Part shown: in pieces, positions 4,675 to 42,272 of the stretch
Numbering within the stretch: position 1 is the first letter of the stretch
How the letters are laid out: every line of letters begins with the position of its first letter
Assembly: GCA_016200005.1 (NCBI GenBank)
Contig: JACQFP010000063.1
Coordinates: 62,001 to 126,000, forward strand
Direction of reading: 5' to 3'
Source: Verrucomicrobiota bacterium
GTDB taxonomy: Bacteria > Verrucomicrobiota > Verrucomicrobiia > Limisphaerales > PALSA-1396
DNA: 64,000 nt
Made by a program: the position numbers and the translations under genes
Notes under the pieces: model-generated
Database searches by the model: none
Told to the model about the DNA's origin: nothing
The model's input: only the letters and a program-made list of their open reading frames with translations

Positions 4675-7600
4675 ATGCCCGACCGCCCTCGCCAACGCGC
4701 GCTCCTCACCTGGCTGGTTTGCGCCAGTTGGGTGGCGTCATTGTCCGCGGCGGAGGTCGAGTCCGGCGCGCGCGCGGAGCAACCGTATCGCGTGAAACGC
4801 TGGACAACTGAGGATGGGCTGCCGCAGAACCGCATCTCCTGCCTCAAGCAAACTCGCGACGGTTATCTGTGGCTCGGCACCTGGTTCGGGCTGGCCCGGT
4901 TTGATGGCGTGCGCTTTACCGTGTTCGACAAATTCAACACTCCGGAACTGGTGAACGACGCTATTAACGCCGTGGCGGAAGACACCGACGGCACGCTCTG
5001 GATTGCCACGGCCGACGGCTTGGTGAGTTATCGGGAGCATCATTTCCGCCGGCTTACAACGGCGCATGGATTGCCTGACCGCAAAGTCTGGCGCCTGACG
5101 GCCCGTCACTCCGGCGGCGTCTGGCTGCAGGCCGGCGATTTGGTAACGCGCCTGGAGGGCGGCAAGTTCTCGCAAGTCTGGAACATGCCATTGCACCAAG
5201 ATACTTCAATCCAGGCGCTGCACGAGGGCGCGGACGGCTGGCTTCACATCGTCACAGGGCACACTTGGCTGACGTTGTCGCCCAATGCGGACGAGTTGCG
5301 AACGAATCAAGTCGAGAATTCATCAGGAAATGCCTGGCTGACGGGGTTGTCCGCGAAGCAGCCGGGCAGTCTTTGGGTGGGCACTCAGCAAGGTCTTCAG
5401 CGATGGGACCAATCTGTCTCAAAGACCATTGGAACAAGCCAACTCGGCCAACGGCCCGTGGACTTCATCTATGAAGACCGCTCCACCAATCTGTGGGTGG
5501 ATACGAAACCGGGAGGGCTGTTTCGCGAGGATCACGGGCGCTGGACGGCCGTTGAATTGGGGGAGAGCGCCGCGCCCGTGTCCACGACCTGCATGGAGGA
5601 GGATCGCGAGGGAAATTTCTGGTTGGGAACCGATCAAGGGCTGGTTCAACTTCAGCGGCGACGGGTGCGCACTTACACCACGCGCGACGGCCTGGTTGAC
5701 GACCATGTGTGGTCGGTCTGCGAGGGAACGGATGGGACAATTTGGGTGGGGGCCGATCGGGGGTTAAGTCGGATTCACGACCGTCGCGTACTTCCGCTGG
5801 ACGCAGGTGACATTTATCCCGATCACCCCGACCGTTGCGTCTGGCCTCCCAGCGATGGCGGCGTGCTGATTGCAAAGTCGCGCATCGGCGTTTTAGAATT
5901 TAAGGAGAGGCTTATTCAACGAGTCGCAGCGAGCGCTCTGCCAAGCCCAAATATCTTCGCGCTCTACGAGGACCGATCGGGCCTTCTCTGGATCGGCACC
6001 GGTAACGGCGTCGCCGCGTTAAAAGACGGCCAAGTCACGGCTTCCTACACGAATTGGGCCGGTCGCTCTGAATATGACGTGCGGTGCATCTTGCAAGACC
6101 GGGCGGGAACTTTCTGGTTCGGCACGCAGGGTCAAGGACTCACGCGCCTGCGCAACCGAAAGTTCGACGTCTTCACCGAGCGCGACGGTCTGAGCAACAA
6201 CCGCGTCTGGGCTATCCACGAGGATGCCGATGGCGCGCTTTGGCTGGGCACGGAGAACGGTTTGACCCGGTTTTTACCGCCCGTAGGAGACGACGTGAGG
6301 AGACTCACTTCGAAAAGCAGAAAGCGGAAAGCAGAAAGCAGACATGAACAGAGCCTCCATACGTCGGCTCCTTCAAAGGAACGTGGAGGTGTGGGTCGCT
6401 TCTTCACCTTCAGACGGAGCCAGGGGTTGTTGGAAAACGCCGTGAATTGGATTCTCGAAGACGACTTCGGTTATCTCTGGCTAAGCGGACTGCGTGGCAT
6501 TTACCGGGTGAAGTTGGAGCAGTTGAACGCTGTGGCGGAGGGCCGCGTACAATCCGTGCAAGTCGCCGCCTTCGGCACTGCCGACGGCATGGAGAGCAGC
6601 GAGACCAATGGCGAAGGCCAACCCGCCGGCTGGAAGGCGCGCGACGGACGGTTGTGGTTTCCCACCACGCGCGGCGTCGTCGTGATTGATCCAAAGACGG
6701 TCGAGGTTAACGAAGTCCCGCCGCCGGTCGTCATCGAGCAGGTGAAGGCCGATGATGAAATAATTTTCGGAGACGGTGTAGCAGCCGGCGTGAGGAGGCG
6801 GACGATGGGACAGAATGGGAATATCCGCCTCCTCACGTCGGCGGTTACGAAGCTTGCTCCCGGTCGAGCGCAAGTGGTCGAAATTTCTTACACAGCGAAC
6901 ACGTTTGTGGATCCCAAGCGCGCGAGATTTCGCTATCGCATGATCGGACGTGATTCCGGTTGGCGTGATGTGACTGTGGATCGGGTTGCTCACTACACCA
7001 ACCTCCGCCCGGGCAACTACTGCTTTGAAGTCGTTGCCGCCAACCATCACGGCGTTTGGAGCCCAACACCGGCGAGTTTCCCTTTTGCGCTCGCGCCGCA
7101 TTTTTATGAAACGTGGCCCTTCTACCTCCTGTGCGCTGCAGCCGTGATTGGCTTGGCGTTAGGTGTACAAGCCTATCGTTTAAGGTGGCAACGGCGGCTG
7201 TTGAAACTGGAAGAGCAGCGCGCCCTGGCCAACGAACGAACGCGCATCGCGCGCGACCTGCATGACGATCTGGGCACCGCGCTGACCGGTCTGGCGCTCG
7301 AACTTGATGTCATTGGCCGCGAAGCCAGAGAGGTGACACCGGTGGCTGAACACCTCGGTGAAACCGCCCAGCGGACGCGCGATCTGGCCGAACGCATGCG
7401 CGAGGTGGTCTGGACCGTCAACCCGCAGTGCGACACGCTTTCCAGCCTGGCCAGTTTTCTGGAACAGCAGATCAGCCAGTTTCTCGGCGCGACCAGCGTG
7501 CGCGTGCGGCTGGATTTTCCCGAAGACATTCCGGCGATGCCGCTGGCGGCGGACGCGCGCCACCAACTGGCGCTCAGTGTGCGCGAGGCTTTGACCAACG

Positions 7601-7857
7601 TCGTGCGGCACGCGCACGCAAGTGAAGTCGTCGTGAGCCTGGCCATCGTCAACGGGTCTTTGATCGTGCAAGTCAAGGACAACGGGCGGGGCTTCCAACC
7701 GGGCGGACAGGTGGGAAACGGTCTGGCGAATCTCCGCGCCCGCTTGGAGCAAATTGGTGGCAGCTTCGAATGCGTTTCGACACCGGGCGCAGGAACCACC
7801 GTCACTTTTCGCCTGCCACTCCGACACGCGGCTGCCGAAAATGGAGGAATCGGATGA
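4675..7857 (+). CDS. Two-component propeller sensor histidine kinase (Reg_prop / Y_Y_Y / NarL-type kinase)
   Basis: 1060 aa. The signal peptide (to about residue 26) is followed by a long periplasmic sensor made of Reg_prop repeats of the type GxLWIGTxxGL (about 40-650), a Y_Y_Y domain (about 690-800), one membrane segment (about 811-835), a HisKA_3 dimerisation domain with RDLHDDLG (phosphoacceptor His863), and a HATPase with N-box Asn975 and the DNGRGF motif (Asp1002). The cognate regulator follows at once. In Bacteroidota and Verrucomicrobia such sensors often detect oligosaccharides (known of the family); the ligand here is unknown. Two palindromic elements are inserted in frame: residues about 537-567, between propeller repeats, and about 702-725, near the Y_Y_Y domain. 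The start was chosen for the signal peptide. Confidence 0.9.
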   Translation: MPDRPRQRALLTWLVCASWVASLSAAEVESGARAEQPYRVKRWTTEDGLPQNRISCLKQTRDGYLWLGTWFGLARFDGVRFTVFDKFNTPELVNDAINAVAEDTDGTLWIATADGLVSYREHHFRRLTTAHGLPDRKVWRLTARHSGGVWLQAGDLVTRLEGGKFSQVWNMPLHQDTSIQALHEGADGWLHIVTGHTWLTLSPNADELRTNQVENSSGNAWLTGLSAKQPGSLWVGTQQGLQRWDQSVSKTIGTSQLGQRPVDFIYEDRSTNLWVDTKPGGLFREDHGRWTAVELGESAAPVSTTCMEEDREGNFWLGTDQGLVQLQRRRVRTYTTRDGLVDDHVWSVCEGTDGTIWVGADRGLSRIHDRRVLPLDAGDIYPDHPDRCVWPPSDGGVLIAKSRIGVLEFKERLIQRVAASALPSPNIFALYEDRSGLLWIGTGNGVAALKDGQVTASYTNWAGRSEYDVRCILQDRAGTFWFGTQGQGLTRLRNRKFDVFTERDGLSNNRVWAIHEDADGALWLGTENGLTRFLPPVGDDVRRLTSKSRKRKAESRHEQSLHTSAPSKERGGVGRFFTFRRSQGLLENAVNWILEDDFGYLWLSGLRGIYRVKLEQLNAVAEGRVQSVQVAAFGTADGMESSETNGEGQPAGWKARDGRLWFPTTRGVVVIDPKTVEVNEVPPPVVIEQVKADDEIIFGDGVAAGVRRRTMGQNGNIRLLTSAVTKLAPGRAQVVEISYTANTFVDPKRARFRYRMIGRDSGWRDVTVDRVAHYTNLRPGNYCFEVVAANHHGVWSPTPASFPFALAPHFYETWPFYLLCAAAVIGLALGVQAYRLRWQRRLLKLEEQRALANERTRIARDLHDDLGTALTGLALELDVIGREAREVTPVAEHLGETAQRTRDLAERMREVVWTVNPQCDTLSSLASFLEQQISQFLGATSVRVRLDFPEDIPAMPLAADARHQLALSVREALTNVVRHAHASEVVVSLAIVNGSLIVQVKDNGRGFQPGGQVGNGLANLRARLEQIGGSFECVSTPGAGTTVTFRLPLRHAAAENGGIG
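6283..6373. repeat. Family A palindromic element, copy 1 (in frame in the sensor kinase gene)
   Basis: The left arm (6283-6308) and right arm (6351-6373) are inverted repeats with about 18 of 23 positions paired. The centre is a purine-rich run of AGCAGAAAG-type units. Read in the host gene it encodes DDVRRLTSKS ... QSLHTSA. It matches the copies at 6778, 32755 and 40894. Confidence 0.8.
6778..6848. repeat. Family A palindromic element, copy 2 (in frame in the sensor kinase gene)
   Basis: The arms 6778-6802 and 6824-6848 pair at about 22 of 25 positions, with a 21-base centre. Read in the host gene it gives VAAGVRRRT ... IRLLTSAVT. It is the shortest of the four copies and lacks the GAAATCC or AGCAGAAAG filler. 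Confidence 0.8.
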
Positions 7858-7890
7858 GCGCCCTCAACCCTCAACTCTCAACTCGCAACC
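7858..7890. repeat. Family B micro-repeat (CTCAACC-type) between kinase and regulator
   Basis: This is a run of CTCAACCCTCAACTCTCAA-type units right after the kinase stop. If translated in the regulator frame it gives QPSTLNSQPAS. Related runs occur at 888-917, 40479-40512 and, degenerate, at 57729-57751. Confidence 0.6.
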
Positions 7891-32754: not shown

Positions 32755-32848
32755 GTAGCAGCCGACGTAAGGAGGCTCTGAATTAAAATTCCGAAATCTG
32801 AAACCCGAGATCCAAAATTGATCAGAGCCTCCCGACGTCGGCTGCTAC
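32755..32848. repeat. Family A palindromic element, copy 3 (intergenic)
   Basis: The arms 32755-32780 and 32823-32848 pair at 24 of 26 positions (GTAGCAGCCGACGT onwards). The centre is a degenerate GAAATCTGAAACCC run. It is the best-preserved palindrome of the four and the only one outside a gene. Confidence 0.85.
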
Positions 32849-39329: not shown

Positions 39330-42272
39330 CTACCCAGTCTCGATCTGCTTTACAGCCTCGACGCAGCGACCGCAAATCGTCGGATGCTCCGGGTGCTTGC
39401 CAACATCCGTTTCCCAATGCCAGCAGCGCTCGCATTTCTGGCCGCGTGCGTGAAACACAAGAACAGTCGGAGCGTCATTTCGTCCTTCGACAGGAGGGCA
39501 GTCTCTGGAGACAAGCTTGAGTTCGGAAACATTTAGCATTTCTTTCATACTCGCGGCATGTGGTATCAGAGCCTCGATGACAGTCGGTGAACCTTCAAGT
39601 TCAACCTCTGCCTCTAGCGACTTTCCAATGGCTTTTCCTTGTCGGGCACCCTCCAAACCATCAAGGGTATGTTCACGCAGTTTGAACAATTTCTCCCAGA
39701 GCTCCCGTTCTGTTTCGGGCCGTTCAAACTGATTCGGGTGCCATGTCTGTTGGTGGATGGATGGAACAGCTTTACTAGGCACGAAGTCCCAAGCCTCATC
39801 CGCCGTAAACGCCAGAATCGGCGCGAGCATCTGGCACAGGCCCGTTACAAGCCGATGCAGCGCGCTCTGAGTCGAGCGGCGGCGGTGCGAATCGGCCGCG
39901 TCGGTGTAGAGCCGGTCTTTGATGACGTCGTGGTAAATCGAGGAAAGTTCGACCGCAATGAACTGACTGATCTTCTGATAAACGACGTGGAATTCGTATT
40001 TGTCGTAAGCCGCAATGACTTCGCTCTCAAGCTTCGAGAACTCGCTGAGAACCCAGCGGTCGAGACCAGTCAACTTGTCGTCGGCCACGGTGTGCTTCGC
40101 GGGATCGAAGTCGTAGAGGTTGGAGATCTGGTAGCGCAGCGCATTACGGATGCCGCGATAGGTCTCGGCCACCTTGTTGATGCGTTCCTCGCTGACGGTG
40201 ATGTCGTTGCGGAAATCCTGCGAGGCGACCCAAAGGCGCACGATGTCAGCGCCGTACTTCTTCACGTAAGCTTCGGCGGTCTGCGGTTTTTCATAGACGC
40301 CATGCGCCTGTCTGCTCTTGGAAATCTTTTCGCGGTCGGCATCGACCATGAAGCCGTGGGTGAGCACGGTCTTGTAAGGCGCGGCACCGTTGCCAGCCAG
40401 CGAGAGCAGCAGCGATGATTGAAACCAGCCGCGATGCTGGTCCGAACCTTCGAGATACATGTCGGCCTGCCAGGAATTGGTTGAGGGTTGAGAGTTGAGA
40501 GTTGAGTGATTCAATTCCGGGCGACGCATCAAGACTGCGCGCGACGACGAACCCGAATCAATCCACACGTCCAGCGTGTCGTTGGATTTGGTGACGGCTT
40601 CCGCTCCTTTCCAGTCTTTCGGTTTCACGAGCGACCAGAGTTCGCTCACGGATTTCTCGAACCAAACGTTGGAGCCATGTTTCTCGATGAGGTCGGCGGC
40701 GTTTCTGACAATCTGCGCGTCAAGGATGGGTTCGCCTTTCGCGTCATAGAATGCCGGGATCGGCACGCCCCAACTGCGTTGACGCGAGATGCACCAATCG
40801 GGACGCGATTGCACGGCGCTTTTGATGCGATTCACGCCCCAATCAGGAATCCATTGGACGCGGTCAATCTCGGCAAGAGCCTCTTGACGGAACGTAGCAG
40901 CCGAGGTGACGAGGCTCTGATCAATTTCGGATTTCGGATTTCGGATTTCGGATTTTGAAGTGAGCCTCCTTACGTCGGCTGCTACATGGTCAATTCGCAC
41001 GAACCACTGGTCCATCGCCCGGAAGATGATCGGCGTCTTGCTGCGCCAGCAGTGCGGGTAGCTGTGATGATAATTTTCCTGGTGCAACAGGACATTGCGG
41101 ACGCGCAGTTCGTGCAGCACGGCGCGGTTGGCGTCGCTCTCGCCGTGCTTTTCGAGAATGGCTTTGCCGATCATCTCGGCGGGCATCTGTTGTTCAACCG
41201 GCAATTCGTTCGTGTAAGCGAAGCAACCATCGTCATCAACGGGCGAATAAATCGGCAGGCCATTTTGACGACCGAGATTGTAATCGTCCAGGCCGTGACC
41301 AGGCGCGATATGGACGAAACCGGTGCCGGTGCTGTTATCGACAAACGAGTCGCCAGCGAACAGTTTTCCCGTGCGATTGCAAAAGGGATGGTGATATTCG
41401 ATCTGCTTGAGTTGATCGCCGGTCAGGCTGCGGATGATTTCGTAACCGCCCCAGCCGCACTTCTCGGCAACGGTGGACAACAACATTGTCGAGACAATGT
41501 AAGTTTGATCGCCGGCGCGGATGTGCGAGTAGCTGAAGGTGGAATTGTAAGCGACGGCGAGATTGGCGGGCAACGTCCACGGTGTTGTCGTCCAGATGAC
41601 GATGGAAGTGTTCGCCTCGCCGACGACCGGGAACTTGACGAAGATGCTCTGGCTGACGTGGTCCTGGTATTCCACTTCGGCCTCGGCGAGCGCGGTGCGG
41701 CAGGGGATGCTCCAATACACCGGTTTCTTGCCGCGATAAACAAATCCTTGCTCGACGATGTCGGCGAACAAACGAAGTTCGTCGGCCTCGTACTCCTTGT
41801 TCAGCGTCAGGTAGGGATTGTCCCAATCGCCGAGCACGCCGAGGCGCTTAAACTGCGTGCGTTGAAAGTCGATGTATTTGCGGGCATAAGCGTCGCAGGC
41901 TTTGCGGATCGTCGCCGCGTCGGCACTGGTGTCGCCAGCCTTCCGCATTTCTTGAGAAACTTTAAATTCAATCGGCAGGCCGTGACAATCCCAGCCCGGA
42001 ACGTAGGGCGCGCTGAAACCACGGAGTGTCTTGTATTTGACGATGATGTCCTTGAGGATTTTGTTCAGCGCCGTGCCGATGTGCACATCGCCATTGGCGA
42101 AAGGTGGGCCGTCGTGGAGAACAAATTTCTCCGCACCGGCGCGCGCAGCCTGGATTTTGTCGTAAAGTTTTTCGCTCTCCCATTTCTTCAAGCGTTCCGG
42201 TTCGCGCGCGACCAGATCGGCTTTCATGGGAAAGTCGGTGCGCGGCAGATTCAATGTGCTCTTGTAGTCCAT
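39330..42272 (-). CDS. ileS: Isoleucyl-tRNA synthetase with two repeat-derived insertions
   Basis: 980 aa. Class I synthetase with HIGT at 64-67, DGPPFANGDV before it, WDCHGLPIE, the CP1 editing domain, MYLEGSDQHRGWFQSSLL, the KMSKS-type loop as KISKS (649-653) and a C-terminal zinc finger CERCW ... CGRC. It charges tRNA-Ile and is essential in known bacteria. Two in-frame insertions are not in the family pattern: residues about 430-459 come from the family A palindrome (VAADVRRLTSKS ... QSLVTSAAT), and about 587-598 come from the family B micro-repeat (STLNSQPST). Start ATG 42272 chosen for MDYKSTLNLPRTDFPMK; the upstream in-frame extension has no family match. Confidence 0.93.
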   Translation of the reverse strand: MDYKSTLNLPRTDFPMKADLVAREPERLKKWESEKLYDKIQAARAGAEKFVLHDGPPFANGDVHIGTALNKILKDIIVKYKTLRGFSAPYVPGWDCHGLPIEFKVSQEMRKAGDTSADAATIRKACDAYARKYIDFQRTQFKRLGVLGDWDNPYLTLNKEYEADELRLFADIVEQGFVYRGKKPVYWSIPCRTALAEAEVEYQDHVSQSIFVKFPVVGEANTSIVIWTTTPWTLPANLAVAYNSTFSYSHIRAGDQTYIVSTMLLSTVAEKCGWGGYEIIRSLTGDQLKQIEYHHPFCNRTGKLFAGDSFVDNSTGTGFVHIAPGHGLDDYNLGRQNGLPIYSPVDDDGCFAYTNELPVEQQMPAEMIGKAILEKHGESDANRAVLHELRVRNVLLHQENYHHSYPHCWRSKTPIIFRAMDQWFVRIDHVAADVRRLTSKSEIRNPKSEIDQSLVTSAATFRQEALAEIDRVQWIPDWGVNRIKSAVQSRPDWCISRQRSWGVPIPAFYDAKGEPILDAQIVRNAADLIEKHGSNVWFEKSVSELWSLVKPKDWKGAEAVTKSNDTLDVWIDSGSSSRAVLMRRPELNHSTLNSQPSTNSWQADMYLEGSDQHRGWFQSSLLLSLAGNGAAPYKTVLTHGFMVDADREKISKSRQAHGVYEKPQTAEAYVKKYGADIVRLWVASQDFRNDITVSEERINKVAETYRGIRNALRYQISNLYDFDPAKHTVADDKLTGLDRWVLSEFSKLESEVIAAYDKYEFHVVYQKISQFIAVELSSIYHDVIKDRLYTDAADSHRRRSTQSALHRLVTGLCQMLAPILAFTADEAWDFVPSKAVPSIHQQTWHPNQFERPETERELWEKLFKLREHTLDGLEGARQGKAIGKSLEAEVELEGSPTVIEALIPHAASMKEMLNVSELKLVSRDCPPVEGRNDAPTVLVFHARGQKCERCWHWETDVGKHPEHPTICGRCVEAVKQIETG
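40479..40512. repeat. Family B micro-repeat inside ileS
   Basis: GGTTGAGGGTTGAGAGTTGA-type units lie in frame in ileS (minus strand), coding STLNSQPST between RPEL and WQADMYLEGSDQHRGW. Normal family members pass straight between these two blocks. Confidence 0.75.
40894..40985. repeat. Family A palindromic element, copy 4 (in frame in ileS)
   Basis: The arms 40894-40917 and 40962-40985 pair at about 21 of 24 positions. The centre is four GAAATCC-type units. In ileS (minus strand) it is read without stops as VAADVRRLTSKSEIRN ... SLVTSAAT. Confidence 0.85.

Follow-up and report, generated by a model that had tools for sequence, protein, structure and literature searches.

A hairpin read in frame in a Verrucomicrobiota sensor kinase gene is probably a GTAG REP dimer kept as a tolerated linker insert

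GTAG REPs, as described by Di Nocera et al. in 2013 (PMC3733652), consist of an unpaired GTAG tag and a short stem-loop body, occur dispersed at high copy number, for the most part between genes, and often form dimers in which the tags lie on the outside (HH) and the spacer varies between 20 and 100 bp. Intragenic copies coding for 20-30 aa, including double hits in one ORF, were published in the same study, with UvrA among the host proteins and Opitutus terrae (Verrucomicrobia) as the richest species (PMC3733652). REPINs, described from Pseudomonas and E. coli in extragenic DNA (PMC3116915), also join two inverted REPs into one long hairpin that is repeated as a unit, and are linked to a neighbouring RAYT. 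The REPs of E. coli contain a conserved stem mismatch that is needed by TnpA-REP (PMC8266576). Palindromes tolerated in frame inside protein genes are found as RPE in Rickettsia, where RPE-4 and RPE-6 are CGTC repeats, not GTAG repeats (PMC3733652). Hairpins also form the ends of IS200/IS605 elements, where they are recognised by Y1 HUH transposases.

The element studied here, named copy 2, is located in a 64,000-nucleotide stretch of a Verrucomicrobiota genome (the window, to whose full length the coordinates of copies 1 to 4 and of the kinase gene refer). Repeats of this type had been described before, and copy 2 is a further GTAG REP among them. The unpaired tag and stem-loop body, outer tags, variable spacer, high copy number, intragenic copies, two hits per gene, uvrA as a target and a verrucomicrobial host are all shared with the published elements, while the body sequence seems to be order-specific, most arms contain a G-A mismatch, and no REPtron was found. 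This tandem G-A mismatch resembles the irregularity required by TnpA-REP in E. coli. The organization as two inverted REPs in one long, repeated hairpin is that of the REPINs, but here one in three of the copies sampled lies within a gene, and a linked RAYT was not found. The in-frame position inside protein genes recalls the Rickettsia RPE, from which copy 2 differs in tag, host and sequence, and the hairpins recall the IS200/IS605 ends, although no transposase lies between the arms and no autonomous copy was seen. Three aspects go beyond PMC3733652, namely the order-wide recurrence of different REP families at identical loops, the covariation within the arm and the absence of a linked RAYT.

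Copy 2 (6778..6848, + strand, 71 bp) is a head-to-head REP dimer that lies in frame in a gene (4675..7857, + strand) encoding a two-component sensor of 1060 aa, with a Reg_prop propeller followed by Y_Y_Y, HisKA_3 and HATPase_c domains. It codes for kinase residues 702-725, VAAGVRRRTMGQNGNIRLLTSAVT, in phase 0, in agreement with the peptide VAAGVRRRT...LLTSAVT that an earlier, sequence-only reading had placed in the kinase frame. The left arm (6778..6802, + strand) is composed of the GTAG tag and the hairpin body and has two differences from the consensus of the CCG subtype, and in the right arm (6824..6848, - strand) GTAA replaces GTAG and the rest is consensus; copy 2 is a lightly decayed CCG-subtype dimer, with three differences in both arms together. 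The arms, of 25 nt each and 21 nt apart, are complementary at 22 of 25 positions (88%), the same value that had been reported before, and the best arm pairing in codon-shuffled kinase genes was 16-18 of 25 (six shuffles). Folding of the element transcript, which the sequence-only reading had proposed as a check, gave -50.8 kcal/mol (z = -7.1). The 21-nt spacer (6803..6823, + strand) is unrelated to those in other CCG-subtype copies, and the claim that conservation is confined to the arms is largely correct, the exception being one recurring spacer subclass, TCCGAAATCCGAAATCCGAAA, with 25 matches versus none in the control. This spacer repeat was found in the 92-94 bp dimers of genome G000, where it is read as KSEIRNPKSE.

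Two features overlooked in the sequence-only reading identify the family: every arm forms its own hairpin, and the GTAG tags face outwards in the dimers. The tag was intact in 93 of 108 arms. In a single arm, bases 5-12 pair with bases 17-24 to form a helix of eight pairs closed by a GTNA loop; 71.9% of the cells were paired, and the covariation score was 0.319, versus 0.091 in shuffled data. Among 44 distinct arms, 41 cells had changed on both sides versus 15.4 in shuffles, a figure reached by none of 500 shuffles (slid structures gave 0-12), and compensatory change was observed at five pairs. Pairs 10-19 and 11-18 are usually tandem G-A mismatches, and are GA/TC in one arm subtype (28/108 arms). 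Since the TAG of the tag and the TGA of GTGAG share the third reading phase, only two phases of the arm are usable. The flanks just outside GTAG are rich in pyrimidines (87 of 108 arms), and CT is found nearby in 38%, compared with 23% in the background; such pyrimidine-rich flanks with extra CT would agree with Y1 cleavage and are no proof of it. A target-site duplication was not apparent in flank composition. By their sequence features, arm, tag and dimer can be assigned to the GTAG REPs.

The arm GTAGCAGCCGACGTGAGGAGGCT had 180 matches in the genome (at most three mismatches), compared with none for the reversed control. Arms pair head to head as dimers, mostly of 69-94 bp, 46 of which were found in 1.24 Mb, and a census of chosen contigs amounting to 2.04 Mb (31% of the genome) gave 67 paired dimers, versus none in the reversed sequence. 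Fourteen pairs of dimers were less than 3 kb apart, where 6.4 were expected. Counted by eye, 22 of the 67 dimers (~33%), in 17 genes, were clearly intragenic, that is, with an open frame extending well beyond both dimer ends, while not all of the others were shown to be intergenic. Since random 75-bp stretches fall in long open frames far more often (76-91%; 76% for frames of at least 300 aa), coding DNA is under-hit relative to chance, as expected with purifying selection, and the earlier suggestion that the element targets coding DNA is not supported. In the clearly intragenic copies the frame is preserved and the phase that reads TAG and TGA is not used, in a census that rests on open frames and which frame-breaking insertions into genes would escape. 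Host identity was backed by Pfam for eight of nine genes checked, plus the kinase, including UvrA (three copies), IleS, a P-type ATPase (a copper ATPase), Ser/Thr kinases, a GMC oxidoreductase and an FG-GAP protein (three copies); prfC, whose product was named by sequence, is also among the intragenic hosts. Within the window, copy 3 (32755..32848, CAG subtype) has no long open frame across it, and copy 4 (40894..40985, - strand) is in frame inside ileS, in a loop where GTAG REPs recur.

The kinase gene contains a second REP dimer, copy 1 (6283..6374, + strand, 92 bp), which is in frame, covers residues 537-567 and belongs to the GAGACG/GAGCCG subtype. Because their arm subtypes differ, copies 1 and 2 are most simply regarded as independent insertions, as had been proposed, and the frame said to be common to copies 1, 2 and 4 is indeed so, with copy 1 in phase 0 and copy 4, which lies on the minus strand in ileS, sharing that phase. 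Relative to nearly all aligned relatives, copy 1 separates two propeller segments as a clean insertion, and one kinase relative (L040) has an unrelated insert at this site. Copy 2 sits in the linker between IIFGDG and LAPGR, which varies in length and sequence across 12 relatives; the linkers of the relatives are not palindromic, fold weakly and lack the element. The Y_Y_Y domain recognised by Pfam (residues 744-804; 6904..7086, + strand) starts downstream of the insert, which is part of a variable linker and not of the normal Y_Y_Y domain. AlphaFold models of the region, made with the 12 relatives, had a mean pLDDT of 82.9, with values below 50 over most of the insert (residues 62-76 of the modelled segment, in which the insert occupies 57-80). 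The variable linker, the low model confidence over the insert and the like pattern in other genes bear out the view that the sensor is tolerant.

The same protein loops were occupied by different REPs in related genomes. The IleS loop contains the GTAG arm family of copy 2 in G000 and G001, and other GTAG REP dimers in G010 (GTAGGACAGGCGTC...) and G003 (GTAGGGACGCGG...), and is empty in G009, G006, G008, G012, G002 and G005. At UvrA site 3, the family of copy 2 is present in G000, G010 and G018, partly decayed in the last two, while G015 has GTAGCGGCGGTC... and the other genomes are short or have unrelated sequence. These patterns represent recurrent entry into permissive loops, and the data fit tolerated insertion into loops, not the targeting of coding DNA. 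The uvrA gene at L213 (G000:C6:65594-68977) carries three in-frame REP dimers, and other GTAG REPs are found at the same loops in relatives. The possibility that the spacer is host DNA trapped between two separate REPs was rejected because relatives whose IleS and UvrA loops are empty do not have the spacer. A clean empty site at the DNA level, which would fix the insertion ends and any target duplication, was not found among the kinase homologues, which are too distant in DNA sequence, or at the IleS and UvrA flanks, which differ by several bases.

The arm was found in 117 of 196 genomes of the order, in many families and with near-identical sequence. Among 114 genomes of the phylum from outside the order, only G261 carries it; this genome, from the same class and another order, has 22 arms, and a recent transfer is possible. 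In a public scan, nearly all named records were Verrucomicrobia, many of them labelled Limisphaerales or subdivision 3, and a few MAG labels, e.g. Klebsiella, look wrong.

Y1 transposases were present in the own genome (four hits) and in each of the 17 others tested, which were G261 and 16 REP-rich relatives; about 85 loci were examined across the 18 genomes. None of these ~85 loci, including the four own ones and all 13 in G261, had the REP of copy 2 within 500 bp, and no RAYT was found near the arm in 120 public contig stretches carrying it. Many RAYTs of the order are flanked by their own, different GTAG REPs. Because a REPtron for the family of copy 2 was sought and not found, the element is filed as a GTAG REP dimer working like a REPIN, and not as a RAYT-linked REPIN, and because a cognate RAYT was not found to adjoin the family, its way of moving is inferred.

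The reading that we favour, with a probability of about 0.85, is that copy 2 is a non-autonomous, REPIN-like GTAG REP dimer that was copied in and kept as a tolerated in-frame insert in the linker. A dimer of this type would be able to form hairpins as single-stranded DNA and would move in that form through a Y1 enzyme, copy 2 having probably been copied into the kinase gene by a Y1/HUH transposase acting in trans. Its retention would be due to an intact frame, the lack of a stop in that phase and the position within a flexible linker, just before Y_Y_Y; the insert would be translated, and would be neutral for the kinase rather than useful. Inverted-repeat ends with variable spacers, and the failure to find a cognate RAYT beside the arm family, would also suit a MITE of a classical DNA transposon, with inverted repeats that start with GTAG by chance and a DDE transposase elsewhere. 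However, each arm is itself a hairpin with compensatory change, the outer tag is that of the published REPs (PMC3733652) and no target duplication is apparent from flank composition, making an origin of this kind unlikely. A functional RNA hairpin (attenuator, thermometer or processing signal) selected to regulate the kinase gene would account for the very stable fold (z = -7.1), but is very improbable given that the same palindrome is dispersed over unrelated genes and intergenic sites, that orthologous linkers fold weakly without it, and that all Rfam matches were sub-threshold. Identity with a known RNA family was rejected on these matches (mir-138, 28.5 bits versus a cut-off of 50).

Two further alternatives concern the fate of the insert in the protein. 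It is decidedly unlikely that the insert is a selected segment that changes kinase function, and not a tolerated passenger: both kinase inserts are in frame and stop-free, and the same loops are filled repeatedly in other genes, but subtype, length and sequence vary at the same sites, relatives do without them, and model confidence over the insert is low. Removal of the insert from the RNA, or ribosome skipping, either of which would leave it absent from the protein, could explain why conserved genes such as ileS, prfC and uvrA carry inserts; yet intragenic copies, in an open-frame-based census, keep the frame and avoid the TAG/TGA phase, which would be needless if they were removed, and this alternative is scarcely credible.

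With copy 2 as a tolerated GTAG REP dimer, the in-frame hairpin is explained as one of a published class, and the order-wide set allows the same protein loop to be compared empty, with one REP family and with another, so that protein tolerance of natural in-frame insertions and REP mobility become testable. A bolder and rather unlikely proposal is that the GTAG REPs of the order, in several families, and even whole RAYT genes, have adapted to coding sequence, that REP peptides are a standing source of new protein segments and that the mobiliser of the copy 2 family is not a linked RAYT. Such adaptation would involve arms whose stops are confined to one phase, recurrent use of loops in proteins that serve replication, repair and translation, and maintenance from one species to the next.

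RAYT genes nested in frame in other genes were also observed; these are a stronger lead than the hairpin and, if confirmed, would be of greater importance. In two genomes of one genus (L182:397-3276, G139; L184:1732-4710, G099), a DinG-type helicase gene (dinG) harbours a whole RAYT gene with GTAGGACAGGCGTC-type REP flanks, in frame and uninterrupted by stops, and Pfam recognised DEAD, Y1_Tnp and Helicase_C_2 within one open frame. Another (L183:2-3979, G148) is in frame in the gene for DNA polymerase III alpha (dnaE), where it is located with flanking REP-like peptides between the finger and HHH_6 domains. Further RAYTs in long open frames were found at L153, L154, L159 and L177, the contexts being a DNA methylase-like gene, a position before or within a type I restriction HsdR-like gene, one after a proline racemase, and a large gene.

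A low-complexity repeat, CTCAACCCTCAACTCTCAAC, occurs at positions 7863-7882, 889-908 and 40480-40499 of the window. In UvrA and IleS it reads as STLNPQLST-like peptides, and its 44 matches are about twice the 23 of the reversed control.
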